A DNA stretch of 64,000 bases. Source: Caenimonas soli. Lineage in GTDB: Bacteria; Pseudomonadota; Gammaproteobacteria; Burkholderiales; Burkholderiaceae_C. The translations under genes were made by a program, and so were the position numbers. Below, piece by piece: positions 317 through 14,360 of this stretch (positions are counted from its first letter, which is position 1; every line of letters begins with the position of its first letter). The notes beneath the pieces were generated by a model that was given only the letters and a program-made list of their open reading frames with translations, did not search any database and was not told where the DNA came from. The DNA lies in assembly GCF_013155545.1 (NCBI RefSeq), contig NZ_JABJVV010000010.1, positions 1 through 64,000 on the forward strand, written 5' to 3'.

Positions 317-1162
317 TCAGGGCAACGGCGTGAACTTCAGCTGACTGAGCGGAACCACCTTGTCTTCACGGGTCATCTTGTACTCGGTGTTCGGGCCCAG
401 CCACTTGTCCCAGAGCTGGTTGATCTCGCCTGCCTTGTCCATCTCCAGCAGCGTGCTGTTGATCTTGGCCAGCAGCGCCGGTTCGTCCTTCTTCATGCCT
501 ACACCGATCGGCTGAAATGCCATCGGCTCGGGAATCATCTTGAGCGGCACGCCGGAGGCCTTGGACTGATTGACCAGCTTGGTGATCGTCATGGTGTTGG
601 CCACCATGCCCAGGGCCTTGTTCTGTTGCACGGCCATGTAGGCGGAACCGGTATCCTGGAAGGTCACGGGTTCCGAGCCATTGAGCTTGATCGACAGTTC
701 GGAGGTCGAGCCCTTGGTCGAGGCCAGGCGCTTGCCCTTGAAATCGGCCTTGCTCTTGCCCGGATCGCTTTCCTTCACGGCCAGCATCTCCTTGGCCAGG
801 TAGTACGGGTCGCTGAACTGGATCTGTTCGGCGCGGCCGAGCGTGTAGGCCAGGTTGGCCACCGTCACGTCGACGCGCCCCATCTTCACCTCCGGCACGC
901 GCGCCTCCACCGACAGCGGTGTGATCGATGCCTTGAGGCCCAGGCGCTTGGCGATGGCGTTGCACAGGTCGACGTCGAAGCCCACCATCTCGCGGGTCTT
1001 GGGGTCGGGGGCGGCGAATGGCGGCACGTCGGCAAAGGTGCCGCAGCGCAGCTCCTTGCGCTGCTGGATGTCCTGCCACTGGTCGGCCAGGGCAGCGAAC
1101 GACAATGCGCCGAGGCCGATGGCCGTGGCGGCGAGGCGAATTGTGGAAATGCGGACAGACAT
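317..1162 (-). CDS. Amino-acid ABC transporter, periplasmic substrate-binding protein
   Basis: Family-3 solute-binding protein of 281 residues, the usual length. A signal peptide covers residues 1-26 (cleavage after SFAALA). The mature part begins with the typical 'LRCGTFADVPPF...DVDLCNAIAKRLG' pattern of polar amino-acid binding proteins. The start at 1162 is preceded by an AAGGAG ribosome site; a longer upstream reading frame is an artefact. It is the last gene of the run SDR - permease - permease - ATPase - binding protein. Glutamate, aspartate or oxoproline would suit the neighbouring PxpABC genes, but the ligand is inference. Confidence 0.9.
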   Translation of the reverse strand: MSVRISTIRLAATAIGLGALSFAALADQWQDIQQRKELRCGTFADVPPFAAPDPKTREMVGFDVDLCNAIAKRLGLKASITPLSVEARVPEVKMGRVDVTVANLAYTLGRAEQIQFSDPYYLAKEMLAVKESDPGKSKADFKGKRLASTKGSTSELSIKLNGSEPVTFQDTGSAYMAVQQNKALGMVANTMTITKLVNQSKASGVPLKMIPEPMAFQPIGVGMKKDEPALLAKINSTLLEMDKAGEINQLWDKWLGPNTEYKMTREDKVVPLSQLKFTPLP

Positions 1163-1194
1163 GGCTGGCTCCTTGAGTTGATGAACGGTTGCTA

Positions 1195-1929
1195 TCAGTG
1201 CGAGCGCAGGTCGGACAGGAAGCGCTGCGCGCGCGGATGCTGGGGGGTGCGGAAAAACGTCTCGGGATCGGCCGACTCGAGAATGCAGCCGGCGTCCATG
1301 AACCACACGCGATCGGCCACCTCGCGCGCGAAACCCATCTCGTGAGTGACGCACATCATCGTCATGCCGTCGCGGGCCAGGCTGCGCATCACGGCCAGCA
1401 CCTCGCCCACCATCTCGGGATCGAGCGCGCTGGTCGGCTCGTCGAACAGCATCGCCGGGGGCTCCATAGCCAGCGCGCGGGCGATCGCCACGCGCTGCTG
1501 CTGGCCGCCGGACAGCTGTGCCGGGTAGGACGAGGCCTTGGCAGCGAGCCCGACGCGATCGAGCAGCTGCATCGCCTTTTCGCGCGCTTCGGCGCGCTTG
1601 GCGCCGCGCACGTGGATCGGCGACAGCATCACGTTGTCCAGCGCCGACAGGTGCGGGAACAGGTTGAAACTCTGGAACACGAAGCCGATGCGGCTGCGCA
1701 GGAGGTTCAGCTGCGCGCTGCTCATGGGCGCGTGGACGTTCTGGCCCTCGAACAGCAGCTCGCCGGACTTGATTTCCTCGAGCCGGTTGACGGTTCGGAT
1801 CAGCGTGGATTTGCCGGACCCCGAAGGGCCGCAGACCACCACCACCTCGCCTTTCTTGACCTCGGCATTGATATCGGTGAGCGCGCGATAGTCGCCGTAC
1901 CACTTGTTGACGTTGGAAAAGACGATCAT
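1195..1929 (-). CDS. Amino-acid ABC transporter ATPase
   Basis: ATP-binding subunit of 244 residues of the GlnQ/HisP type. Visible motifs: Walker [10 protein letters not shown] (about residues 34-42), a Q-loop at FQSFNLFPH, the signature LSGGQQQR, Walker [14 protein letters not shown] and the switch histidine in VTHEMGFA. It would sit on the cytoplasmic face and drive the two permeases encoded just upstream in the same transcript. The gap to the permease is 16 bases and to the binding-protein gene 32 bases. Confidence 0.95.
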
Positions 1930-1945
1930 GTGCGTTTGACTCCGG

Positions 1946-2701
1946 TCAGGGTTCGGCCACCAGCGGCTGGACGATAGCCGCGGCCTGGATCGCAGCGGCG
2001 CTGCGCTGCCCTGCGCGCTTGGCGGTGATGCGCTGTTCCAGCGCCCTCGCCGCCCGTGTCAGGCTCCAGCAAACGACGTAATAGATGACGGCCAGGATGA
2101 AGAACACCTCGAACGGCTTGGTCAGCAGCTGGTTGTTGATCTGGTTGGCCGCGAAGGTGAGTTCGGGCACGTTGATGACGTAGCCCAGCGTCGTCTCCTT
2201 GATCGTCGAGACGAACTGGCTGAGCATGCTGGGCAGCATGTTGAATAGCGCCTGAGGCAAGATCACCAGGCGCATCGCGCCCAGGTGGCTGTGGCCGAGC
2301 GACCGCGCGGCCTCCATCTGGCCTTTAGGCAAGGCCTCGATGCCCGCGCGTACCACCTCGGACAGATAAGCCCCTTCGTAGATCACCAGGGTGCATAGCA
2401 TCGTCACGAAGCCCGACACGTTGCGGCCGATCAGAAGTGGCACCAGGAAGTAGACCCACAGGATCAACATCAGGAGCGGCACACCGCGAACCAGGTACAC
2501 CAGTGCGGTGGACGGCCACTTCAGCAGCCGCCAGTGCGACAGCCGGGCCAGCGCCAGCAGCACGCTCAAGGGAAAGGCCAGCACGATGCCCAGCACCGAC
2601 AGGATCAGCGTGCAGGCGATGCCGCCCAGCGGCCCATTGGGGTACTGGCCGATCAGCAGCAGCAGCCAGTTGTCGCGCAGGATCTCGAAGATGGAGGTCA
2701 T
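1946..2701 (-). CDS. Amino-acid ABC transporter permease (second copy)
   Basis: Membrane protein of 251 residues of the HisM/GltJ type. The binding-protein-dependent loop reads [23 protein letters not shown], matching the family EAA motif. Several hydrophobic segments cover most of its length. It lies 3 bases after the other permease, and the two probably form a heterodimer. The C-terminal tail after about residue 225 is Ala-rich and variable. Confidence 0.9.
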
Positions 2702-2704
2702 GGC

Positions 2705-3406
2705 TTACCTCGCCCCGGCAACGCGGGCGCGCCGGCCCAGCCAGGCGCCGGCCATCATGAACAGCAGCGAGAAGGCCAGGTACATGATCGTCGCCAGCAG
2801 GTAGGCCTCGAAGGCGCGGAAGCTCAGGTTCTCGACCTCCTTCACGGCATGTGTGAGTTCGGCCACGCCGATGGCCATCGCCAGGCTGCTGTTCTTGAAC
2901 AGCGAGACGGTGTGGTTGACCAGCGCCGGCAAGGCGTTGCGCACGGCCTGTGGCATCAGCACATGGCGCATCGCGCTCACGTAGCTATGGCCCAGGGCAC
3001 GGGCCGCCTCGGCCTGGCCGGCCGGGATCGAGCGCAGGCCGGAGCGCAAATCCTCGCTGAAATACGCCGCCTGGCACAGGCCCAGGCCGATGATCGCGAA
3101 CACCGCCTCACCGTTGTGCTCGCCCAGCCAGCCCTGCACGGCGTTGGGCATCAGGCTGGAGATGCCGAAGTACCACAGCATCAACTGCACCAGCGTCGGC
3201 ACGTTCTGGTGGTAGGAGATGTAGGCGATCACGCCCCGCTCGGCCACTCGGCTGGGCGTCAGGCGCACCACCAGCAGCACCACGGCCAGGCTCATCGCCA
3301 GCAGCCAGGACCCGAACGCGATCACCAGCGTCATTTGCACGCCGTGCACCAGCATCCGGACGAACTCCGCGTTCAGCAGGATCGCGATGAGGTCGAAGCC
3401 TTTCAT
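2705..3406 (-). CDS. Amino-acid ABC transporter permease (first copy)
   Basis: Membrane subunit of 233 residues with the EAA-type loop SIPAGQAEAARALGHSYVSAMR, paired with the next gene as a two-permease importer. I place the start at 3406 (MKGFDLIAILL), behind a purine-rich AGGAAGAA site. An upstream in-frame ATG would overlap the SDR gene's coding end and gives an unlikely basic, proline-rich N-terminus. The sequence after the start has the expected periplasmic and first transmembrane segments. Confidence 0.88.
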   Translation of the reverse strand: MKGFDLIAILLNAEFVRMLVHGVQMTLVIAFGSWLLAMSLAVVLLVVRLTPSRVAERGVIAYISYHQNVPTLVQLMLWYFGISSLMPNAVQGWLGEHNGEAVFAIIGLGLCQAAYFSEDLRSGLRSIPAGQAEAARALGHSYVSAMRHVLMPQAVRNALPALVNHTVSLFKNSSLAMAIGVAELTHAVKEVENLSFRAFEAYLLATIMYLAFSLLFMMAGAWLGRRARVAGAR

Positions 3407-3437: not shown

Positions 3438-4190
3438 TCAGGCCTGCGGCCGCTCGGGCCGGGTGGTTTGCAGGCCACCGGGGACTTGCATCGTCGGCGT
3501 GATCTCGATATGGCCGATGTTCACCGCCACCGGCGCGGAAATCGCGAAGGCGATGGCGTTGGCGATGTCCGCCGCCTGCGGCAGCTCGAAGCCCTTGACG
3601 AAGCGCTCGTAGGTTTCCGCGGAGTCGCCGTGCACATGGGCAAAGATGTCCGTCGCCACCCGGCCGGGGCAGATCTCGGTCACGCGAACGCGCTTGCCGA
3701 AGGCGTCGATGCGCAGCTGCCGCGACAGCATGCTCACAGCCGCCTTGGTAGCGTGGTAGGTGGAGTTGCCGCCGAAGTTGTAGGCACCGGCGATCGAGCT
3801 GATGTTGACGACATGGCCGCGATCGCGCGCCACCATGCCGGGCACGACCAGGCGGCATAGATGCAGCACGGCCCGCAGGTTCACGTCGATCAGCAGGTCG
3901 ATGTCCTGCGCGTCGGCCTTCAGGAAGGATTTGGGGCGGTCGACTCCGGCGTTGTTGACCAGCACGTCGAACTCGACTTCGCCGGCGAGCCGGGTGATGC
4001 CGGCGAGGTCGGTGACGTCCAGCGCGTGCGCAACGCAGCCGGTGCGTTCGGCAAGCGCATCCAGTGCCTTGGCGCCGCGTGCCAGCGCGTGCACTCGTAG
4101 TCCTTCCTTGCACAGCCGCTCGACGACGGCGGCTCCGATGCCGGACGAAGCACCGGTGACCAGAGCGGTCTTGTAGTCAGTGAAGGGCAT
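3438..4190 (-). CDS. Short-chain dehydrogenase/reductase (SDR)
   Basis: Classical SDR of 250 residues: NAD(P)-binding TGASSGIG near the N-terminus, NNAG at about residue 85, catalytic Ser in NISSIAGAY, and Tyr/Lys in STYHATK. The PG motif after the active site is CPGRVATDIF. The family includes 3-hydroxy acid dehydrogenases such as YdfG, which act on serine or 3-hydroxypropionate-type substrates; the substrate here is not visible. It is the first gene of the amino-acid transporter operon and follows promoter module A (4208-4279). Confidence 0.9.
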   Translation of the reverse strand: MPFTDYKTALVTGASSGIGAAVVERLCKEGLRVHALARGAKALDALAERTGCVAHALDVTDLAGITRLAGEVEFDVLVNNAGVDRPKSFLKADAQDIDLLIDVNLRAVLHLCRLVVPGMVARDRGHVVNISSIAGAYNFGGNSTYHATKAAVSMLSRQLRIDAFGKRVRVTEICPGRVATDIFAHVHGDSAETYERFVKGFELPQAADIANAIAFAISAPVAVNIGHIEITPTMQVPGGLQTTRPERPQA

Positions 4191-4207: not shown

Positions 4208-4279
4208 TGTGTCAATTTATCGATGGCTGGCCTGTTGCGCCAAGACGGATTGGGTGTGGTGAGATAAGCCGCTCTTATG
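4208..4279 (-). promoter_or_regulatory. Nac-type promoter module A (SDR/amino-acid transporter operon)
   Basis: Reading toward the SDR gene: ATA-N9-TAT (4278-4264), 20 nt, TTGGCG (4243-4238), 18 nt, then TAAATT (4219-4214). The predicted start of transcription is near 4207, which places the box centre (4271) 64 bases upstream. That is the position known for sites of the LysR-type regulator Nac. The motif CGTCTTGGCG at the -35 is identical in modules B and C. The box overlaps the last codons of pxpA. Confidence 0.72.
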
Positions 4280-5054
4280 TCACCGCCAGTTGCAGGGAGA
4301 TCGGGACGATCCGGCCACCCCCAGCTTCGATTTCGCGCCGTATCGTGCGCGCCAGCCCTACTGCGCCCGGCGTGTCGCCATGCACCAGGATCGATCGAGG
4401 CCGCATGGCCAGGGTTTTCCCGCTGTGGGTGACGATGCTGCCTTCCGCCAGCAGGCGACGCACCCGATCCAGCACGGCCGTTTCGTCGTGGATCACCGCG
4501 CCGGGCAGCTTGCGCGGCACCAGCAAGCCTTCGTCGTCGTAGGCGCGGTCGGCCAGGAACGCGGTGGCGATGCGCAGGCCGCATTGCGCTGCCGCGCCCT
4601 CGATCGCCCGGCTGCTCGACGAGCTGATGATGAGCGACGGATCGAAACCCGCCACCGCGCGCACCAGCGGCCCGGCCAGGGCCGCGTCGCCGGCAGCGAG
4701 GTTGCCCAGCGCCCCGTGGAAGCTCATGTGCGTCATGCGGTGGCCGGCCGCGCGCGCGATGCCGGCCAGCGCGCCGAGCTGGTAAGTCACCATCGCGGCA
4801 AGCTCCGCGGTGTCGATCTGCATGGACCGGCGTCCGAAGCCCTGGAGGTCCGGATAGCCCACATGCGCACCCACGTCGACGCCGCGCGCCAACGCCTGTC
4901 GCACCGTCCGGTCCATGATGACCGGGTCGCCGGCGTGGAAGCCGCAGGCGACGTTGGCGGACGAGACGACTTCGAGCAGCGCTTCGTCCTCGCCCATGCG
5001 CCAGGGGCCGTAGCCCTCGCCCATATCTGCATTGAGGTCGATGTCCATGGTCAT
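4275..5054 (-). CDS. pxpA: 5-oxoprolinase subunit A (LamB/YcsF family)
   Basis: Protein of 259 residues with the family hallmarks: DLNADMGEG at the N-terminus, ANVACGFHAGDP, GAHVGYPDLQGFGRR, and VHGDTPGAV near the end. PxpA works with PxpB and PxpC in ATP-dependent opening of the 5-oxoproline ring to glutamate. Oddly, the usual SFVKPHGALYN-like segment reads MSFHGALGN and a Ser-rich run follows, so substrate preference may differ from the E. coli enzyme. It overlaps the preceding carrier-like gene by 4 bases and is last in the accB-accC-pxpB-pxpC run. Confidence 0.9.
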   Translation of the reverse strand: MTMDIDLNADMGEGYGPWRMGEDEALLEVVSSANVACGFHAGDPVIMDRTVRQALARGVDVGAHVGYPDLQGFGRRSMQIDTAELAAMVTYQLGALAGIARAAGHRMTHMSFHGALGNLAAGDAALAGPLVRAVAGFDPSLIISSSSSRAIEGAAAQCGLRIATAFLADRAYDDEGLLVPRKLPGAVIHDETAVLDRVRRLLAEGSIVTHSGKTLAMRPRSILVHGDTPGAVGLARTIRREIEAGGGRIVPISLQLAVT

Positions 5055-5458
5055 GCCTGCCTTCCAGGAGATTGAAGTTCGACCAGCGGCGTGCCGTACC
5101 CCACGATCGTGCCTGGCTCCGCCAGCATGGCGGCCAGGATGCCGTCTTGCGGCGCCGTGACCGGCAGCAGCAGGGCGCCGATCCGCAGCAGGCCCACCAC
5201 TTGCCCGGCGCCCACCACGGCACCGGGAGGTACCAGCGGTTCCGCGCGCAGCGGGTGGCCATGCAGGAACACGCCCACCGAGGCGGCGGCCACGACCTTG
5301 GATTCAGGCTCGTTTCCCGCCGTGTCGGATGGGACGAGCTCGACGCGCGTGCCGTTGCGACGCAAGCGCAGATGCTCCCCGGGGCCCTGCAATTCCAGCA
5401 GGTCGATGTCGGTGGCCTCCAGCCAGCGCGACAACTGCTGCACCTCTTCAATGCGCAT
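5051..5458 (-). CDS. BCCP-like protein lacking the biotinylation lysine
   Basis: This 135-residue protein has the layout of a biotin carboxyl carrier protein: an N-terminal helix (RIEEVQQLSRWLEATDIDLLELQG), a linker and a C-terminal biotinyl/lipoyl-like fold. Its last 50 residues align without gaps to the true AccB at 8475-8915. Where AccB has EAMK with the biotin lysine, this copy reads RIGA (residues 92-95), so it has no lysine to biotinylate. It overlaps pxpA by 4 bases and pxpC by 11, so it should be translated with them. A structural or regulatory subunit is one explanation. Confidence 0.75.
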   Translation of the reverse strand: MRIEEVQQLSRWLEATDIDLLELQGPGEHLRLRRNGTRVELVPSDTAGNEPESKVVAAASVGVFLHGHPLRAEPLVPPGAVVGAGQVVGLLRIGALLLPVTAPQDGILAAMLAEPGTIVGYGTPLVELQSPGRQA

Positions 5459-6449
5459 GCTCGGCTCCTCGCTGGCCGCGGTGCAAGTCGACGAGGCGGC
5501 GCGCCTCGTCCAACCATCGTCGGTTCTGGTCGAGCGCGGCGACAGCCTCGTCCCACGTGGTTTCGACGAAGCGGATACGGCTGCCGATGGGCGCCTGGCC
5601 CAGGCGCCAGCGGTCTGCCTCGATCACCGTGCCGATCTTCGGATAGCCGCCCGAAGGCTGCGCGTCGCACATCTGGACGATGGGCTGTCCGCTGGGAGGC
5701 ACCTGGATCACGCCCGGAACGATGCCGTGCGACCGCATTTCGATCTCATCGACCGGCTGCAGCGGCGCGCCGGCCAACCGGTAGCCATAGCGGTCGCTTT
5801 GCGGGGTGATCTTCCAGGCCTCGGCCCAGAACGACGCGCGCGAAGCTTCGGTGTAGTGGCCGTACTCGCCCGCAGGCAGCACGCGCATCGCCGGCAGGCC
5901 ATCCGCCTCCAGCGGCAGGGCGAGCGCCGGCGGCACCAGGCCGAAGCCGGTGGCCTGAAGCCCGGCACCCGGCGCCACGGCTTGCAGCTTGTCACCGCGA
6001 CGCAGCGCCCGGCCGTCCAGGCCGCCGAACGCGCCGCGCAACTGGGTACTGCGCGAGCCCAGCACTTCGGGCACGTCGACACCACCGGCCAGGCACAGGT
6101 AGACGCGGCTCGCGCGCCAGGCGCTGGCTTGCTGCGGCACGCCGAGCTGCAGCACCTGGCCCGCCCGTGCCGCATGGGTCCACCATGGCAGCAGCGCGAC
6201 GTCGTCCAGACGCGCGGCGCAATCGGCGCCGGTCACGGCGAACGCGCAGTCGGCGGTGAAGCGCACCTGGAACGGAAACACCGGCACCTCGATGGCGGCC
6301 GCCCCTTCGTCGTTGCCCAGCAGCAGGTTGCCCGCGGCCAGCGCGAGCGGGTCCATCGCGCCCGAGCTGCCCACGCCCCAGCGCAATTCGCCCAAGCGTC
6401 CCAGGTCCTGCACCGTGGCCAGCGCGCTGGCGGACAAGACTTCGATCAT
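5448..6449 (-). CDS. pxpC: 5-oxoprolinase subunit C / carboxyltransferase-like protein (KipA, AHS2)
   Basis: Protein of 333 residues of the biotin-dependent carboxyltransferase/allophanate-hydrolase-subunit-2 family. It shows the N-terminal motif TVQDLGRLGELRWGVGSSGAMD and later the family stretch CDAQPSGGYPKIGTV. Family knowledge: KipI and KipA halves together resemble the carboxyltransferase domain of urea carboxylase, and in many bacteria form 5-oxoprolinase with PxpA. It overlaps pxpB by 4 bases and the carrier-like gene by 11. Confidence 0.9.
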   Translation of the reverse strand: MIEVLSASALATVQDLGRLGELRWGVGSSGAMDPLALAAGNLLLGNDEGAAAIEVPVFPFQVRFTADCAFAVTGADCAARLDDVALLPWWTHAARAGQVLQLGVPQQASAWRASRVYLCLAGGVDVPEVLGSRSTQLRGAFGGLDGRALRRGDKLQAVAPGAGLQATGFGLVPPALALPLEADGLPAMRVLPAGEYGHYTEASRASFWAEAWKITPQSDRYGYRLAGAPLQPVDEIEMRSHGIVPGVIQVPPSGQPIVQMCDAQPSGGYPKIGTVIEADRWRLGQAPIGSRIRFVETTWDEAVAALDQNRRWLDEARRLVDLHRGQRGAEHAH

Positions 6450-7105
6450 CGGATCACCTTTTCGACACGAAAGCGGATGCTGTCGCCCGGCTGGACCAGC
6501 GCGGGCGGGTCCTGCGCCGGATCGAAGAACCTCATCGTGGTGCTGCCTATCGTGTTCCAGCCGCTCGGCCCGTCGGAGGCCGACACGCCGGTCTGCGCGC
6601 CGCCGATGGACACGGCGCCGCCGGGGATGCTGATGACGGGCACCTTGCGCCGGGGCGTGGCGATGCGCGGGTCCATGCCGCCGAGATAGCAGTAGCCGGG
6701 GTGGCTGCCGATCGCAAACACCGGGTACAGCGGCGCACTGTGAAGCTCGACGATCTCGTCCACGCGCAGGCCGGTGTACGCGACCACGTCGGCCATGTGC
6801 GGGCCGCCGGGGCCGCCATACACCACCGGCAGTTCGATCACACGGCCCTTCAGCGGCATCGGCTGCACCGCCTGCCAGGCGGCACGGAGACGCGCCTTGA
6901 GTTCATCGAGTCGGCGCGGCGCCCGCTCGAAGCTCAGCATCAGGTTGTTCATGCCGGGCACGGCCTCGCGCACCTCGGGCCAGGATTGCGCTTCGCGCGC
7001 CAGTGCCCAGACTCGCTGCTGGGCCGACAGGTCCATGTCGCCGGGCGGCTCGAACAGCAGGGCACTGGTGCCCAGCAGGCTGATGGTGGCGTCCTGGGAC
7101 CTCAT
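6446..7105 (-). CDS. pxpB: 5-oxoprolinase subunit B (KipI, AHS1)
   Basis: Protein of 219 residues with the allophanate-hydrolase-subunit-1 core: [18 protein letters not shown], then [20 protein letters not shown] and [17 protein letters not shown]. The usual 'F.PGF.YL' segment is GSHPGYCYL here. It partners PxpC, and the two are coupled by a 4-base overlap. Its own start overlaps the end of accC by 4 bases, so carboxylase and oxoprolinase-like subunits are made from one message. Confidence 0.9.
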
Positions 7106-8454
7106 GGCTCTTTCCGTTGTTGCAGCCAGCGTTCAAGGTGATGGATGTCCACACCGCCGGCCGCGAAGCCGGCGTCCTGGACGATCTGGCGGTGCAGCGG
7201 CAGGTTGGTGGCGATGCCCCCCACACGCATCTCCTCGAGCGCCACGCGCAAACGCACCAGGGCGTCGTCGCGCGTCGCGCCGTGCACGATCAGCTTGGCG
7301 ATCATCGAGTCGTAGTACGGCGGCACCCGATAGCCGGCCCCGACATGGGTGTCCACCCGAACGCCATAGCCGCCGGGCAGCACCCATTCGCCGATGAGTC
7401 CGGGCGACGGGGCGAAGGTGTCGGGGTTCTCGGCGTTGATGCGGCACTCGAGCGCATGGCCGCGGCATTCGATGTCCGCCTGGGTGATGGCCAGCCGCTC
7501 GCCCCGCGCCACGCGGAGCTGCTGCTGCACGATGTCGATGCCGGTGGTCATCTCGGTGACCGGGTGCTCCACCTGCAGGCGCGTGTTCATCTCGATGAAA
7601 TAGAACGCGCCGTCCTCGAACAGGAATTCGAAAGTGCCGACGCCGCAGTAGCCGATCTGCCGGCAGGCTTGCGCGCAGCGTTCGCCGACGGCGCGGATCA
7701 GTGCGATGTCTATGCCCGGCGCCGGCGCTTCCTCGATCACCTTCTGATGGCGGCGCTGCAACGAGCAGTCGCGGCTGCCCAGCCACAGCGCGTTGCCGTG
7801 GCTGTCGGCCAGTACCTGGATCTCGACATGGCGCGGATGCAGCAGGAATTTCTCGATGTAGACCTCGGGGTTGCCGAAGGCGCGCCGGGCTTCTTCGCGG
7901 GTCAGCGACAGGGCGTCCAGCAGTTCGGCCTCGCCGTGCACGACCCGCATGCCCCGGCCGCCACCGCCGCCCGCGGCCTTGACGATCACCGGATAGCCGA
8001 TGTCGCGTGCCACCGCGCGTACGGCGCCGGGGTCGTCGGGCAGCGCCGTGTCGGGCCCGGGCACGCAGGGCACGCCGGCCTCCCTCATCGCCCGCTTGGC
8101 GGCGACCTTGTCACCCATCGTCCGGATGCATGCGGCACTGGGGCCGATGAAGGTCAGCCCGGCTTGCTCGACGCGGTCGGCGAAGCCCGCGTTCTCCGAG
8201 AGAAAACCATAGCCGGGGTGAATCGCCTGGGCGCCACTGACCTGTGCGGCGAACAGGATCGCCGCCTGGTTCAGGTAGCTGCGTCCCGGCGCAGCGGGCC
8301 CGATGCACAGGGCCTGGTCGGCCTGGCGCACGTAGACCGCATCCTGGTCCGCCTGCGAATGCACGGCGACCGTGCGCAGGCCCAGCCCGCGGCAGGCGCG
8401 TTGGATGCGCAAGGCGATCTCACCGCGATTGGCAATCAGGACAGTGTCGAACAT
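7102..8454 (-). CDS. accC: Biotin carboxylase (AccC-type)
   Basis: Enzyme of about 450 residues that carboxylates the biotin carrier with ATP and bicarbonate. The N-terminus [11 protein letters not shown], the glycine-rich ATP-grasp loop [14 protein letters not shown], the [18 protein letters not shown] segment and the catalytic [14 protein letters not shown] are intact. I start it at 8454 ([11 protein letters not shown]) because the family begins there; an ATG three codons earlier (8463) is possible and neither has a clear ribosome site. No accA/accD lies nearby, so its carboxyltransferase partner may be PxpB/PxpC. A housekeeping accC is expected elsewhere. Confidence 0.9.
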
Positions 8455-8474
8455 GGCGGGCATGGTGAATGTGG

Positions 8475-8915
8475 TCAGGCAAATCGCACCAACGGCTGGC
8501 CGGTTTCCACTTCCTGTCCCGAGGCGACGAGCACGGTATCCACTACCCCGTCATGCTCCGCGCGGACCTCGTTGAAGACTTTCATGGCCTCGATGACGCA
8601 CAGTGTCTGGCCCGCCTTCACGGCAAGCCCCGGTGCCACGAAAGGCGGCTCGCCCGGCGAAGGCTGCAGGTGCACGACGCCATAGAGGGGGGCGCGCAGT
8701 ACGCTTTCCGCGGGCCGAGACGCTTCATCACGTTGGGCCGCAGCAGTGGTGATCGCTGGACGCGGGCGGGCGGGCTCCACGCGCGTAGCCGTTGCCGGCG
8801 TACCGTTCGCCCGCCGCACGAGGCGCAGCGTCCAGCCGTCCTGGCTGAACTCCATCTCGGCTAAATCCGAGGATGCCATCGCATCGATGAATGCCTTGAT
8901 CTGCTGCGGGTCCAT
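8475..8915 (-). CDS. accB: Biotin carboxyl carrier protein (AccB-type)
   Basis: Protein of 146 residues with an AccB-like helical N-terminus, a Pro/Ala-rich linker at about residues 38-70 and a C-terminal biotinyl domain. The biotinylation motif is EAMKVFN with Lys112; the usual methionine after the lysine is Val. It is the first gene of the accB-accC-pxp operon behind promoter module B. The predicted transcription start is only about 3 bases before the ATG and no ribosome site is visible, so the message may be leaderless. Confidence 0.9.
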
Positions 8916-8917
8916 AT

Positions 8918-8990
8918 GCCCGCAACAGTACTGGCGCCGCGCTCAGGGCGCCAAGACGGAATGTCTCTAGCGCGATAAGGGAGACTTATG
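8918..8990 (-). promoter_or_regulatory. Nac-type promoter module B (accB-accC-pxp operon)
   Basis: Toward accB: ATA-N9-TAT (8989-8975; the inner arms also pair as ATAAG-N5-CTTAT on the plus strand), 20 nt, TTGGCG (8954-8949), 18 nt, TACTGT (8930-8925). The predicted start is near 8918 and the box centre is 64 bases upstream. Spacing is identical to modules A and C. The box overlaps the stop codon of the LysR gene. Confidence 0.75.
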
Positions 8991-9918
8991 ACGCGGCGTG
9001 ATGCTCCCCGGCGAGCAGGCTGTGGGGCAGGCCCGTCACGAGTTCGAGCAGGATTTCCTTGACCGCCTGCGCCGGCTCCGACAGCGGCAGGTGGTCCGAC
9101 TGGCACAGCGCCAACGGCGCCTCTATCACCGGCTCGACGATGCGGCATTGCCACGCATCGCTGGACGCGACCACCTCGGCCGCCATCGACGCCGGCAGGA
9201 TGGTGGCACCCAGCCCATCGGCGATCACGGCCTTGAGAGTGCTGGCGGACTCGATTTCGCCGACGACACGCGGCACCATGCCCGCGCCCGCGAAGGCTTC
9301 GTCCACCATCCGGCGCACCACGTTGTAGGGACGCGCGAGGTACAGGTCCATCTCGCCCAGCATGCGCAGCCGCACCTGGTCCGGCGGCGCCGGCATGCTG
9401 TTCGGCCCGACAACGAAGAGCTGCTCCTTGAGCAGCGGCAGGAACGACAGGCCATGCACCTGCGTCTTGCCGCCGTAGAGCACGGCCAGGTCCATGCGGC
9501 CGTTCATGATCAGTTCCGACAGCGTGGTGCCGTAGGTTTCGTTCAGGTAGAGCAGGATGCCGGGGTGGCGGGCGCGGACCGTGCGCACCAGCGGCAGAGC
9601 CAGCGAGGCCGCGGCGGTGCCGGGCGCCAAGCCGACCGCCACGGCGCCGGACAGACCGCGCCCGGCTGCCGCCATGTCGACCTGCGCCTGCTCGCATTGC
9701 CGCATGATGAGCTGGGCATGGCGATAGAGCACCTTGCCCGCCTCGGTCGGCGTGACGCCACGCTTGGTTCGCACCAGCAGCTGCTGGCGGACTTCGCCTT
9801 CGAGCGTGGCCAGTTGCTGGCTCAAAGCCGGCTGCGCAATGTGCAGGAGATCGGCCGCCTGCGTGAGGCTGCCGACGTCCACGATCTTCACGAAATATTT
9901 CAGGCGCCTGAGGTTCAT
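8986..9918 (-). CDS. LysR-type regulator, Nac-like
   Basis: Regulator of 310 residues from the start at 9918 (MNLRRLKYFVKIVDVGSLTQ). An in-frame ATG at 9975 would add 19 residues and lies inside promoter module C. The winged helix-turn-helix is in residues 10-60 (AADLLHIAQPALSQQLATLE) and the co-inducer domain follows. The sequence resembles the nitrogen assimilation control (Nac) branch. Its neighbours carry three ATA-N9-TAT boxes, the known Nac recognition pattern, so it is the obvious candidate regulator of all three operons. Module C also lies 63 bases upstream of its own start, compatible with autoregulation. Confidence 0.85.
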   Translation of the reverse strand: MNLRRLKYFVKIVDVGSLTQAADLLHIAQPALSQQLATLEGEVRQQLLVRTKRGVTPTEAGKVLYRHAQLIMRQCEQAQVDMAAAGRGLSGAVAVGLAPGTAAASLALPLVRTVRARHPGILLYLNETYGTTLSELIMNGRMDLAVLYGGKTQVHGLSFLPLLKEQLFVVGPNSMPAPPDQVRLRMLGEMDLYLARPYNVVRRMVDEAFAGAGMVPRVVGEIESASTLKAVIADGLGATILPASMAAEVVASSDAWQCRIVEPVIEAPLALCQSDHLPLSEPAQAVKEILLELVTGLPHSLLAGEHHAAS

Positions 9919-9972
9919 GGCGTCCGTCCCGGGCGGAGTGATTCCTGATGATGCCACGAACCCGGCGCTATC

Positions 9973-10045
9973 CATAAGTGTTGCCTATTTAGGCAGACCG
10001 AACTCGTCTTGGCGCGCGGGGCGAAGGCGTCTTACTGTTACGCCT
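9973..10045 (+). promoter_or_regulatory. Nac-type promoter module C (aminotransferase/idonate operon)
   Basis: ATA-N9-TAT at 9974-9988, 20 nt, TTGGCG at 10009-10014, 18 nt, TACTGT at 10033-10038. The predicted transcription start is near 10045, 64 bases from the box centre. The -10 hexamer TACTGT and -35 context CGTCTTGGCG match module B. A perfect TGCCTA-TT-TAGGCA inverted repeat (9982-9995) overlaps the box and may be a second binding site. Confidence 0.75.
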
Positions 10046-10073: not shown

Positions 10074-11282
10074 GTGAACCCATCCCGTATCGCCGAGCGC
10101 GTCAGGCGCATCAAGCCGTCGCCCAGCACCTCGGCCGCCGACCGCGCCAACGAGCTGCGGCGCCAAGGCAAGTCCATCGTCAACCTGGTCGTGGGCGAGC
10201 CGGATTTCAACACGCCGGAGCACATCCGGCGGGCAGCGGCCGCGGCCATGGACGCGGGCGCGACACGCTACACGCTGATGGCCGGCACGGTGGAACTGCG
10301 CCAAGCCATTGCAGCCAAGCTCGAACGCGAGAACGGGCTCACCTATGCCCTCAGCGAAATCATCGCCACCAATGGCGCCAAGAGCGCCATCTACAGCGCC
10401 CTTGCGGCAACGCTGCAGTCCGGCGACGAAGTCATCATTCCGGCGCCCTATTGGGTTTCGTACCCCGACATGGTGCTGGCCAACGACGGCGTGCCCGTCA
10501 CCGTCCCCTGCCCCGAGGCCAACGGCTTCAAGATCACGCCTGCTCAGCTTGCGGCGGCCATCACCCCACGGACGCGCTGGTTGCTACTGAATTCGCCAAG
10601 CAATCCGACCGGCGCGAGCTACACCGTGGCCGAATATCGCGCCCTCGCCGAAGTGCTAGCCGCCCATCCGCAGGTGCTCGTCATGACGGACGACATCTAC
10701 GAGCACATCCGATTCGACGGCGAACGCACACCGCACCTGCTCAACGCCGCGCCCGAACTTCGCGATCGCACATTGGCCATCAACGGCGTGTCCAAGACCT
10801 ATGCGATGACAGGCTGGCGCATCGGCTGGGCGGCGGGCCCGCGTGACCTGATCCTGGCCCTGGACACGCTGCTGTCGCAATCTGCCGGAAATTGCTGTTC
10901 GATCAGCCAGGCTGCGGCCGCCGCCGCGCTGAACGGCGACCAAGGCTTCGTGGCCGAAAGCGTGATCGTCTACAAGCAGCGGCGCGATGCCACGCTGGCA
11001 CGCATCAACGCGATCCCCGGGCTGAGTTGCCGCTCACCGGACGGCGCGTTCTACCTCTACATCAACTGCGCCGGCCTGATCGGCAAGACCACGCCCGAAG
11101 GCAAGGTCCTGGTTCAAGACGGCGACGTGGTGATGTACCTGCTTGAAAAAGAAGGTGTCGCGGTCGTCGCGGGTACCGCCTACGGCCTCTCGCCCTACTT
11201 CCGCCTGTCGATCGCGACATCGATCGAGATTCTCGAAGAAGGCTGTACCCGTATCGCACGCGCGGTCGCTGCACTGCGCTGA
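10074..11282 (+). CDS. Class I/II PLP aminotransferase (aspartate aminotransferase type)
   Basis: Enzyme of 402 residues starting at a GTG behind AAGGAA. Fold-type I features: VVGEPDFNTPEHI near the N-terminus, NSPSNPTG, and the PLP lysine in GVSKTYAMTGWRIGW with the phosphate-binding arginine. The family covers aspartate, aromatic and other amino-acid transaminases; the substrate is not visible. It opens an operon that continues with an RraA-like protein and sugar-acid enzymes. A role in nitrogen recovery would fit the Nac-type promoter. Confidence 0.9.
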   Translation: MNPSRIAERVRRIKPSPSTSAADRANELRRQGKSIVNLVVGEPDFNTPEHIRRAAAAAMDAGATRYTLMAGTVELRQAIAAKLERENGLTYALSEIIATNGAKSAIYSALAATLQSGDEVIIPAPYWVSYPDMVLANDGVPVTVPCPEANGFKITPAQLAAAITPRTRWLLLNSPSNPTGASYTVAEYRALAEVLAAHPQVLVMTDDIYEHIRFDGERTPHLLNAAPELRDRTLAINGVSKTYAMTGWRIGWAAGPRDLILALDTLLSQSAGNCCSISQAAAAAALNGDQGFVAESVIVYKQRRDATLARINAIPGLSCRSPDGAFYLYINCAGLIGKTTPEGKVLVQDGDVVMYLLEKEGVAVVAGTAYGLSPYFRLSIATSIEILEEGCTRIARAVAALR

Positions 11283-11324
11283 ACCACTGCACTGAAATAT
11301 TCACCGCATACATCGAGGAAGCCC

Positions 11325-11999
11325 ATGAGCACGTACAAGGCCATCCGCAAAGTCCCCTCGGCCCCTCAGGCCGACGCCAAGGTCATCGCCGCGCTACGCG
11401 AGATCCCGGTCGCGGCACTCAGCGACAACATGCACCGCAACATCGGCACCGTGGGGCTGCATCCCTACCACCGCCCGGGCAAACAGACGATGGCGGGCAC
11501 GGCCGTCACCGCGCGCTCGCGCGGCGGCGACAACCTGACGTACCTGCGCGCCCTGGAGTTCTGCCGCCCGGGCGACGTGCTGGTGATCGACGCCGGCGGG
11601 GACCTCAACAACGCAGTTGTCGGCGGCATCCTGTCGTTCTACGCCGCCAGCATCGGCGTCACCGGCGTCGTGATCGACGGCGCGGTGCGTGACGTGGCCG
11701 AGATCCGCGAGCGCACGTTTCCGGTCTATGCCCGCGGCGTCACGCACCGCGGCCCGTACAAGGACGGGCCGGGCGAGATCAACGTGCCCATCAGCGTCGG
11801 CGGCATGGTGGTGAATCCCGGCGATATCGTCGTTGGCGACCAGGACGGCTTGCTGGCCATTCCCCAGCAAGGTATTGAGGAGCTCATCGAAAAGGCAATC
11901 GCCCACCTGCACGCCGAAGCGAAGACCATCCAGGCCATGAAGGAAGGCCGCTGGGACCGGTCCTTCATCGACGCGCTCGAAGCGCGCTGCAACAACTGA
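11325..11999 (+). CDS. RraA-like protein / HMG aldolase family
   Basis: Protein of 224 residues of the RraA/demethylmenaquinone-methyltransferase-like family. It includes 4-hydroxy-4-methyl-2-oxoglutarate and oxaloacetate-decarboxylating aldolases as well as the E. coli RNase E inhibitor. Seen: the glycine-rich GGDLNNAVVGGILS region and the GVVIDGAVRDVAEI motif, whose Arg and Asp bind pyruvate and metal in the aldolases. The operon context favours the aldolase/decarboxylase role over RNase control. Confidence 0.82.
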   Translation: MSTYKAIRKVPSAPQADAKVIAALREIPVAALSDNMHRNIGTVGLHPYHRPGKQTMAGTAVTARSRGGDNLTYLRALEFCRPGDVLVIDAGGDLNNAVVGGILSFYAASIGVTGVVIDGAVRDVAEIRERTFPVYARGVTHRGPYKDGPGEINVPISVGGMVVNPGDIVVGDQDGLLAIPQQGIEELIEKAIAHLHAEAKTIQAMKEGRWDRSFIDALEARCNN

Positions 12000-12009
12000 A
12001 GAACCTTCC

Positions 12010-12543
12010 ATGAGCCCCGTCGCATCGCGCCACAAAGTGCTGGTCATGGGCGTCGCCGGTTGCGGCAAGTCGACGGTCGCCGGCATGCTGGCCACGCAGC
12101 TGGGCGCGGCATTGATCGAGGGCGACGAACATCACCCGCCGGCCAGCCAGGAAAAGATGCGCAACGGCATTGCCCTCTTGGACAGCGATCGCGAGCCGTG
12201 GCTGGACAAGCTGGGAGCGCTACTCGCGGGAACCCCAGGCAACGCCGTACTTGCCTGCTCGGCGCTCAAGCGAAGTTATCGCGACCGGCTGCGCGCGGCC
12301 GAGCCGGCCCTGCGGATCGTCTATCTGGAGATTTCGCTGGCCGAGGCGCATTGCCGGGTGGCGGCGCGCAAGGAACATTTTTTTCCCCCGGGCCTGGTGG
12401 TGAGCCAGTTTGCGTCACTCGAGGCGCCCACCGGAGAAGCCGGGGTCCTGCGATTGCCCGCCCATCAGCCCTTGGCCGCGCAGGCCAGTACGATCATGGC
12501 CTGGCTTGGCCGTAACATCACGGACGAACAAGGAGTCATGTGA
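12010..12543 (+). CDS. gntK: Gluconokinase
   Basis: Kinase of 177 residues. P-loop GVAGCGKSTVAG, the EGDEHHPPASQEKMRNGIAL segment typical of GntK/IdnK, and ACSALKRSYRDRLR are all present. It makes 6-phosphogluconate from gluconate, feeding Entner-Doudoroff; edd and eda are at 35801-38244. It lies 10 bases after the RraA-like gene and its stop overlaps the GTG start of the following reductase, so the enzymes are translationally coupled. Confidence 0.93.
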   Translation: MSPVASRHKVLVMGVAGCGKSTVAGMLATQLGAALIEGDEHHPPASQEKMRNGIALLDSDREPWLDKLGALLAGTPGNAVLACSALKRSYRDRLRAAEPALRIVYLEISLAEAHCRVAARKEHFFPPGLVVSQFASLEAPTGEAGVLRLPAHQPLAAQASTIMAWLGRNITDEQGVM

Positions 12544-13313
12544 ATTCCATCCTTCAGAAATTCGACCTCACCGGCCGCACGGCGCTCATCACGGGATCGA
12601 GCTCCGGCATTGGCCATGCACTCGCCATCGGCCTTGCCGGCGCCGGCGCGCGCATCGTGCTGAATGGGCGCGACCCGGCCAAGCTCGAACGTGCCGCAGA
12701 GAAGCTGAAAGCCGATGGCGCTACCGTGGTCACGACGCCTTTCGACGTCACCGACGGCGCTGCCGTGACCAAGGCCATCGCGCACATCGAAGCCGAAATC
12801 GGCCCCATCGACATCCTCGTCAACAACGCCGGCATGCAGCGCCGCGCCCCGCTCGAAGAGTTCGAAGAGGCGCACTGGCACGAGCTGATGAAGACCAATG
12901 TCGACAGCGTGTTCCTGGTCGGCCAGGCGGTGGCCAGGCACATGATCCCGCGCGGCCGCGGCAAGATCATCAACATCTGTTCGGTGCAAAGCGAACTGGG
13001 CCGTCCCAACATCGCACCCTACACCGCCAGCAAGGGCGCCGTGAAGATGCTGACCAAGGGCATGGCGATCGACTGGGGCCAATACGGCATCCAGGTCAAT
13101 GGCCTGGGCCCCGGCTATTTCAAGACCGAACTCACGGAGGCGCTGGTGAACAACGCCGAATTCAGCGGCTGGCTGATCAACCGCACGCCGTCGCGCCGCT
13201 GGGGCGACGTCGAGGACCTGGTCGGCGCAGCCGTGTTCCTGGCGAGCGAGGCATCGAACTTCGTCAACGGCCACATCCTCTATGTGGATGGCGGCGTGAC
13301 TGCAACCCTTTAA
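12540..13313 (+). CDS. idnO: SDR, gluconate 5-dehydrogenase type
   Basis: SDR of 257 residues with a GTG start overlapping the gluconokinase stop. Motifs: TGSSSGIG, NNAGMQ, catalytic Ser in NICSVQSE and Tyr/Lys in APYTASKGA. The stretches GMQRRAPLEEF and NRTPSRRWG are typical of gluconate 5-dehydrogenases, which reduce 5-ketogluconate to gluconate. With the next gene (idonate dehydrogenase) and gluconokinase it completes L-idonate to 6-phosphogluconate. Confidence 0.88.
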   Translation: MNSILQKFDLTGRTALITGSSSGIGHALAIGLAGAGARIVLNGRDPAKLERAAEKLKADGATVVTTPFDVTDGAAVTKAIAHIEAEIGPIDILVNNAGMQRRAPLEEFEEAHWHELMKTNVDSVFLVGQAVARHMIPRGRGKIINICSVQSELGRPNIAPYTASKGAVKMLTKGMAIDWGQYGIQVNGLGPGYFKTELTEALVNNAEFSGWLINRTPSRRWGDVEDLVGAAVFLASEASNFVNGHILYVDGGVTATL

Positions 13314-13325
13314 AGACACCAAGAC

Positions 13326-14360
13326 ATGGACGCTCTAGTCATCCACGCCGCCCGCGACCTGCGAGTCGAAGACGTTCCCACCCCTGAAGTGCTGCCGCAC
13401 CAGCTGCGCGTGCGGGTACGCTTTGGCGGCATTTGCGGATCCGACCTGCACTACTTCCAGGATGGCGGGTTCGGCACGATCCGTGTCAAGGAGCCCATGG
13501 TGCTGGGCCATGAGGTGGCGGGCATGATCGAGGAAGTTGGCAGCGGCGTTTCGGGCTTCGCGCCCGGCGAACGCATCGCCATCAGTCCCAGCCTGCCCTG
13601 CGGCATCTGCCGCTATTGCCAGCAAGGTCTGCAGAATCACTGCCTGGACATGCGCTACTTCGGCAGCGCGATGCGCACCCCGCACGTACAAGGCGCGTTC
13701 CGTCGCGAGATCGTGGTCGAGAAAGGGCAGGCATACAAACTTGCCGACACGCTGAGCGACGAGGAAGGCGCGATGGCCGAGCCGCTCGCGGTCGCGCTGC
13801 ACGCGGTTCGCCGCGCAGGGCCCTTGCTCGGCAAGAACGTGTTGGTGACCGGGTGCGGGCCCATAGGCGCGCTGGCGGTCATCGCTGCGCGGCACGCCGG
13901 CGCCTCGAACATCGTCGTGACCGACATGGGCGACTATGCGCTGCGCAGCGCGCTGAAGGTCGGCGCCGACCAGGCCATCAACGTCGCGGAACAGCCCGAC
14001 GGCCTGCGGCCGTTCACCACCGACAAGGGCCAGTTCGACGTGCTGTTCGAGGCCAGCGGCAACGAACGGGCGCTGCGCGGCGCCTTCGATGCGCTGCGCC
14101 CGCGCGGCATCATCGTGCAGATCGGCATCGGCGGCGAGATGACGCTGCCGATCAATGCCATCGTCGCCAAGGAGTTCGACCTGCGCGGCACCTTCCGCTT
14201 CCACGAGGAGTTCGGCATCGCCGTCGACCTGCTGAACAAGGGGCTGGTCGACGTCAAGCCGCTGATCTCGGCATCGGTGTCCTACCGCGACGCGGGGCGG
14301 GCATTCGCATTGGCGGCGGATCGCTCGAAGGCGATGAAGGTGCTGCTGGACTTCAAGTAA
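13326..14360 (+). CDS. idnD: L-idonate 5-dehydrogenase (zinc alcohol dehydrogenase family)
   Basis: Medium-chain dehydrogenase of 344 residues. Catalytic zinc residues appear in GGICGSDLHY and GHEVAG. The structural zinc region SPSLPCGICRYCQQGLQNHC gives four cysteines, and the Rossmann loop is VTGCGPIGALAV. The SDLHYFQDGGFG segment is typical of L-idonate dehydrogenases, which oxidise L-idonate to 5-ketogluconate. Last gene of the operon; a strong hairpin follows its stop codon by about 9 bases. Confidence 0.88.
   Translation: MDALVIHAARDLRVEDVPTPEVLPHQLRVRVRFGGICGSDLHYFQDGGFGTIRVKEPMVLGHEVAGMIEEVGSGVSGFAPGERIAISPSLPCGICRYCQQGLQNHCLDMRYFGSAMRTPHVQGAFRREIVVEKGQAYKLADTLSDEEGAMAEPLAVALHAVRRAGPLLGKNVLVTGCGPIGALAVIAARHAGASNIVVTDMGDYALRSALKVGADQAINVAEQPDGLRPFTTDKGQFDVLFEASGNERALRGAFDALRPRGIIVQIGIGGEMTLPINAIVAKEFDLRGTFRFHEEFGIAVDLLNKGLVDVKPLISASVSYRDAGRAFALAADRSKAMKVLLDFK

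Follow-up and report, generated by a model that had tools for sequence, protein, structure and literature searches.

What does a LysR-type regulator closely resembling the enteric nitrogen regulator Nac control when its gene sits inside a 5-oxoprolinase-type locus of a member of the Burkholderiales: nitrogen assimilation at large, or only the genes around it? We addressed this question in a 64,000-nucleotide stretch of Caenimonas soli DNA (GCF_013155545.1, contig NZ_JABJVV010000010.1, positions 1 to 64,000; here called the window), in which the regulator gene (lysR, 8986..9918, reverse strand, 310 amino acids) lies between two of three promoter-like modules, A, B, and C, that share one layout. 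Comparison with relatives shows that these LysR-type promoters form a local, rigidly conserved set and that they accompany a Nac-family protein from genome to genome. This rigid shared layout suggests a local switch, and we consider it likely that the LysR protein binds the modules and activates three transcription units together in response to a lactam-type inducer.

The pattern ATA-N9-TAT-N20-TTGGCG has three exact matches in the window, at 4238-4278 and 8949-8989 on the reverse strand and at 9974-10014 on the forward strand, and none in 100 dinucleotide shuffles of the window. Exactly 18 nucleotides (nt) past TTGGCG all three carry TA-N3-T, in the forms TAAATT, TACTGT, and TACTGT, confirming the repeated arrangement described in the initial annotation, whose module coordinates are correct to within 1 to 2 bases. 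Module A (4208..4278, reverse strand), upstream of short-chain dehydrogenase (SDR) and amino-acid importer genes, consists of the box ATAAGAGCGGCTTAT (4264-4278), CGTC TTGGCG, an 18-nt spacer, and the −10 element TAAATT (4214-4219). Module B (8918..8989, reverse strand) has the box ATAAGTCTCCCTTAT (8975-8989), the same CGTC TTGGCG and 18-nt spacer, and a −10 element, TACTGT (8925-8930), that ends 9 nt ahead of the accB ATG. Module C (9974..10045, forward strand), divergent from lysR and ahead of an aminotransferase gene, has the box ATAAGTGTTGCCTAT (9974-9988), CGTC TTGGCG, 18 nt, and TACTGT (10033-10038). All three boxes are inverted repeats of the form ATAAG-N5-CTTAT (with CCTAT in module C) and so T-N11-A LysR sites; the center falls at −64 only if transcription starts 7 nt past the −10 element, as predicted. 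Box A includes the TAA stop codon of pxpA, and box B that of lysR. Given the 9 nt between the −10 element of module B and the accB ATG, and with no Shine-Dalgarno sequence seen (8913-8930, reverse strand), the accB mRNA would be almost leaderless; the first in-frame start lies 6 to 10 nt past the module B −10 element in 11 of 76 relatives.

Across the whole 5.64-Mb genome the same pattern has four exact matches, comprising the three modules and one at C45. The C45 match has neither the CGTC nor the CAnA context, and we rejected it as a further target on that ground. When up to two mismatches are allowed, the genome yields 91 matches versus 51 for the reversed control.

The modules are retained where relatives retain the genes, and the refuting case named in the initial annotation, boxes lost in relatives that still have the genes, was not what we saw. 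A scan of species genomes turned up 471 relatives, of which the 80 best loci were retained (LysR identity, 65 to 95%); they come from Burkholderiales, Acetobacteraceae, other bins labeled Alphaproteobacteria, Rhodocyclaceae, and Pseudomonas. Gene content around the regulator is stable: accB lies within 1 kb of the LysR gene in 77 of the 80 loci and the aminotransferase gene in 78, and at least one pxp gene is present in 77 of the 80 stretches. Searching with a regular expression in which box and TTGG could be 16 to 27 nt apart gave modules before 65/69 SDR, 62/79 accB, and 55/78 aminotransferase genes in the loci bearing them; the gap was nevertheless 20 nt in 182 of 182 modules so found, and TA-N3-T stood at 18 nt in 176 of them. 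A matrix built from these hits, with CTTGG required, recovered nearly all of the misses as variants when scanned over the same 80 loci, giving module A in 69/69, module B in 76/79, and module C in 77/78 loci (222 of 226 positions in all). The three exceptions for module B (L045, L069, and L074) have a module scoring 28.7 to 30.3 directly behind the LysR gene, in L045 before an RraA gene, and the exception for module C is L104. Modules also occur in loci outside the matrix training (L194, L195, L196, L198, L201, L205, and L206). In a Pseudomonas strain (sp. T1-3-2, L101), two identical copies of module B, at 6915 and 7589, flank a partial second LysR match (53%), an arrangement resembling the outcome of a tandem duplication.

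Conservation extends well beyond the box. Mean information per base is 1.30 bits in the box and 1.27 bits at positions 21-41, compared with 0.27 in the spacer (42-57), 0.85 at positions 58-65, and 0.27 downstream. The conserved core exceeds a Nac box and reads ATAAG-N5-CTTAT...CAnAg.CAa..CGTCTTGG. Of the extra conserved bases proposed in the initial annotation, the CGTC context stands, but their extent was understated, with positions 21-22, 24, 28, and 32-39 conserved too. T34-C35-T36-T37 is invariant over 206 distinct modules, in part a bias of matrix training, which required CTTGG. The second conserved block within this core, CAnAG-N9-CTTGG, forms a weaker dyad overlapping the −35 element and is a putative activation site.

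Module and regulator also occur together at a broader scale. A stricter pattern matched 9 of 200 family genomes, with no match for the reversed control. Its ATAAG form is present in five of the 200 (G000, G197, G162, G150, and G104), the same five that have a LysR match (E ≤ 1e-60); in G104 the match is a 45% paralog, but the module lies between an 80% LysR fragment and accB. By comparison, pxpC (E ≤ 1e-40) occurs in 28 of these genomes, and the 24 without the LysR gene show no pattern match: the module tracks the regulator, not the enzymes. The stricter pattern matched four further genomes. In three of them it lies before a CatR-like LysR gene and again shows the box-20-TTGG spacing; two of these LysR genes face a gene whose translation resembles muconate cycloisomerase. 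The fourth match (G146) is unexplained. The box-20-TTGG geometry is therefore common to LysR-type systems in general, and it is the sequence that sets this regulator's modules apart. In L109, L111, and L114, promoters next to CatR-like LysR genes keep the geometry but differ in sequence, with ATAC-N7-GTAT (ATACT..GGGTAT in L109), 20 nt, TTGG, and a common AGTCTAAAA block. One organism is represented by L077, G150, and G353 and is thus counted in several samples. The two other sampled genomes of the window's genus have neither the LysR gene nor pxpC, and the locus is therefore accessory there.

Within genomes that carry the regulator, sites are local. A composite pattern, which is blind to sites consisting of the box alone, gave 75 matches in 30 relatives, with at least one in every genome and none for the reversed control (0/30). 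All except two (G369:C90 and G359:C26) lie on the LysR-bearing contig, within about 25 kb (73/75), and the site is confined to the locus in G000 and in 28 of the 30 relatives, the remaining two having one site on another contig. One composite match in Polaromonas jejuensis (G349) adjoins a second copy of the LysR gene (63%), which lies some 22 kb away from the first. Such a second Nac-family LysR gene, 62 to 65% identical, occurs about 3 kb (G343, L174/L185) or about 22 kb (G349, L175/L186) from the first; a module (48.0) lies directly behind it in G349, and none was found within 1.5 kb in G343.

The regulator itself is of the Nac family; the initial annotation called it Nac-like. It scores 484.7 bits against the NCBIfam NAC model (NF008410; cut-off, 309), is 51% identical to Escherichia coli Nac over 296 amino acids, with 55 of the first 65 residues identical, and has HTH_1 (PF00126) and LysR substrate-binding (PF03466) domains. 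It thus shares with enteric Nac its family, a near-identical DNA-binding region, and the ATA-N9-TAT box. Its setting differs. In E. coli, Klebsiella, and Citrobacter, nac lies beside cbl and has a sigma54-type site about 70 nt upstream, whereas the window gene is flanked by the aminotransferase gene and accB, inside the locus that it apparently controls. A consensus scan (TGGCA-N7/8-TGC) found no sigma54-type site within 250 nt upstream of lysR in the window and none upstream of the LysR gene in any of the 80 relatives (upstream sequence available, ≥200 nt in 79); sigma54 control of the window lysR was rejected on these grounds. Given the lack of a sigma54 promoter and of genome-wide sites, the protein is, judged by sequence, a Nac-family local regulator and not Nac as usually known.

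Placement of the box at −64 is known for enteric Nac at hut, and the initial annotation called the modules Nac-type. As worded, this is not supported, because the placement is not diagnostic: CatR-like promoters have the same spacing, and ATA-N9-TAT fits the general LysR consensus CTATA-N9-TATAG, T-N11-A boxes being general for LysR proteins according to excerpts of PMC5002191. No ATA-N9-TAT box was found upstream of hutU in a plasmid-borne hut operon, where hutU lies close behind hutH, and no module was found in the upstream regions of E. coli pxp and nac. The excerpts of PMC5217608 offered no usable Nac motif.

We propose that the LysR protein would bind ATAAG-N5-CTTAT, the recognition site, about 64 nt upstream of each predicted start, would occupy CAnAG-N9-CTTGG, the weaker second site running into a poor −35 element (TTGGCG), and would recruit sigma70 RNA polymerase to the fixed −10 element. 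Occupancy of the box and the CTTGG block by this protein, activating a promoter with a poor −35 element, is the most likely arrangement in our analysis, and it matches LysR activators such as AccR, in which excerpts of PMC11602165 place a recognition site (RBS) near −65 and an activation site (ABS) near −35. The importer and SDR, the biotin carboxylase/5-oxoprolinase, and the aminotransferase with its followers would be switched on jointly, and a metabolite of the pathway probably acts as inducer, either 5-oxoproline or a lactam amino acid akin to it. The protein would thus most likely be a pathway-specific activator of a 5-oxoproline-type lactam locus. The local regulon of three units put forward in the initial annotation is supported by comparison, except that the idonate part of the third operon is little kept: the aminotransferase, present in 78 of the 80 stretches, is its conserved part, compared with RraA in 46, an idonate-type dehydrogenase in 20, and gluconokinase in 10, counts in which some genes are perhaps beyond the ends of the stretches.

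A true Nac would be made under nitrogen limitation through NtrC and sigma54 and would link these genes and others to nitrogen status, no small-molecule inducer being involved; enteric Nac is active independently of a co-inducer. A match to the NAC model far over its cut-off, the 55/65 identity in the DNA-binding region, and a sigma54-type site at the pxp-linked nac of Rahnella are all in keeping with that, yet the sigma54 consensus seen in the three enteric genera is absent from the window and from 80/80 relatives, and composite sites are limited to the locus, making a true Nac unlikely. It is also quite improbable that the modules bind the LysR protein chiefly to repress otherwise constitutive promoters. 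A divergent regulator and target are often autorepressed, and module C does lie between the divergent lysR and aminotransferase genes; against this, the −35 elements match TTGACA poorly, and the box stands upstream of the −35 element at the usual activator position (RBS about −65 and ABS about −35 in AccR; excerpts of PMC11602165). Least probable of all is that other LysR proteins use these generic boxes and that the neighboring lysR is incidental. Such proteins abound, the genome having 93 LysR-like matches; boxes of the T-N11-A type are a general feature (PMC5002191, in excerpt), and CatR-like promoters have the same geometry, but module presence coincides with this very LysR gene across the 200 genomes, and the gene keeps within 1 kb of accB (77/80) and the aminotransferase gene (78/80).

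Several points nevertheless weigh against activation of a local regulon by the LysR protein. What the sequences show is the modules with their spacing and conservation, their occurrence alongside the regulator, and their confinement to the locus; binding, activation in preference to repression, the starts, the second site, the inducer, and the substrate are predicted. The matrix scores in the 80 training loci are not independent. The module is missing from the searched stretch at 3/79 B and 1/78 C positions, and TA-N3-T is off its standard place in 3/69 A, 2/76 B, and 20/77 C modules. Since the regulator occurs in only 5 of 200 genomes, its one-to-one match with the module rests on few positives, and the geometry, shared with CatR-like promoters, is not regulator-specific.

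These comparisons also bear on the origin of Nac. The enteric global regulator may descend from a protein whose control was local to a 5-oxoprolinase (pxp) locus: an ancestral pxp-linked LysR protein with rigid modules, of Alpha-, Beta-, and Gammaproteobacteria, would have gained a sigma54 promoter within the locus and later left it, its regulon becoming wide in the line of E. coli and Klebsiella. We regard this descent as possible though rather doubtful, and the evidence as suggestive. E. coli Nac matched 26 records of a plasmid collection; of the 9 examined, 7 (from Rahnella or non-enteric bacteria) contain pxp genes as well as one or more sites scoring >25, the weakest top sites among the seven being those of Terrarubrum (26.6) and Rahnella (27.6). 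On the plasmid of Rahnella sikkimica (L193), an enteric relative, a pxp locus occurs together with a clean sigma54-type site upstream of nac (6935-6949) and with two sites resembling the module (scores, 27.6 and 12.1), at 7924 and 9295, which come after nac and before the SDR gene. This plasmid may represent a transitional stage from a local regulator to the Nac of enteric bacteria.

A 41-row tree joins Rahnella to enteric Nac (90/90) within the pxp-linked LysR proteins, though support is moderate and branches are long; an earlier quick tree did not resolve the place of E. coli Nac. In a first approximately unbiased (AU) test, keeping enteric Nac separate from all pxp-linked LysR proteins was rejected (p = 0.003), but the result was confounded by L126, a 45% paralog with pxp linkage not shown that grouped with the two deepest pxp-linked rows. 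Weighing against descent, the test does not reject this separation either without L126 (p = 0.084) or without the two deep rows (p = 0.086), and the groups were named after the tree had been seen. With p at 0.084 once L126 is removed, nesting of enteric Nac among pxp-linked LysR proteins is not established. Because class sampling around a Pseudomonas genome yielded no enteric Nac (1/369, the centre itself; 0/339 with E. coli Amn), the descent of Nac from a pxp regulator rests on one Rahnella record.

The three operons look like genes for the uptake and catabolism of a compound resembling an amino acid. Behind module B, all on the reverse strand, family searches identified accB, an accB-like biotin carboxyl carrier protein (BCCP) gene with the biotinylation motif EAMKV (8475..8915), accC-like biotin carboxylase (7102..8463), pxpB (CT_C_D; 6446..7105), and a PxpC-like member of the biotin-dependent carboxyltransferase family (CT_A_B; 5448..6449) that is above the TIGR00724 cut-off and below that of the PxpC equivalog NF045499; then come a second BCCP-like gene (5051..5458) and pxpA (LamB/YcsF; 4275..5054, by family searches). 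Operon B therefore holds all parts of a urea-carboxylase-like enzyme, i.e., biotin carboxylase, BCCP, and both carboxyltransferase domains, plus PxpA, and the lactam opened may accordingly not be 5-oxoproline itself. The second BCCP-like protein has IGALLLPV where EAMK is expected, and neither MK nor EAM occurs at the biotin site in any of 75 aligned relatives (0/75); by sequence it is a conserved carrier domain without the biotin-accepting lysine. In Rahnella, the sole BCCP in the stretch examined likewise lacks the biotin lysine, and no biotin carboxylase was found in that stretch.

Behind module A, the SDR gene comes first (3438..4190, reverse strand, by family search), followed by a polar amino-acid ATP-binding cassette importer (317..3403, reverse strand) with its binding protein (317-1111, by family search) and, from reading translations, an ATPase (1195-1929) and two permeases (1946-2701 and 2705-3403). 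Module C precedes genes on the forward strand (10074..14360) for an aspartate-type aminotransferase, an RraA-like protein, a small kinase, an SDR, and a zinc alcohol dehydrogenase; we take the kinase to be gluconokinase-like and the dehydrogenase to be presumably idonate-type.

Among known systems, the CatR/catB-like and AccR/accS activators are similar in having a T-N11-A site near −65, a second near −35, and a divergent target (for AccR, excerpts of PMC11602165), CatR-like promoters even sharing the box-20-TTGG spacing. They differ in that here three units each have a full copy of the module, with the second block and the spacing strongly conserved. A 5-oxoprolinase locus that includes its transporter and has a local regulator dedicated to it is described in Corynebacterium glutamicum (PxpR and pxpTABC), the one studied case of pxp regulation that we found; excerpts of PMC13274462 present regulation of bacterial 5-oxoproline use as previously unstudied to its authors' knowledge. 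PxpR, however, is a GntR-type repressor that binds 5-oxoproline, whereas the regulator here is LysR-type, its inducer is probably a lactam, and biotin carboxylase, BCCP, and aminotransferase are further components of the locus. Among the titles and abstracts listed in searches of open-licence literature, none described this regulon or a Nac linked to pxp genes.

For a process whose regulation is hardly studied (PMC13274462, in excerpt), the modules define an explicit and testable operator, with box, second block, −10 element, and fixed spacings, for a regulator annotated NAC in several proteobacteria. Should the proposed descent of Nac be true, they would give a stepwise view of how a pathway-specific LysR protein becomes a global regulator. 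They also indicate that outside the enterics the NAC label can name a local catabolic regulator and not a nitrogen-status regulator. Public annotation names the pxp-linked LysR genes of L193, L194, L195, and L197 "nitrogen assimilation transcriptional regulator NAC," a label that may misstate their function.

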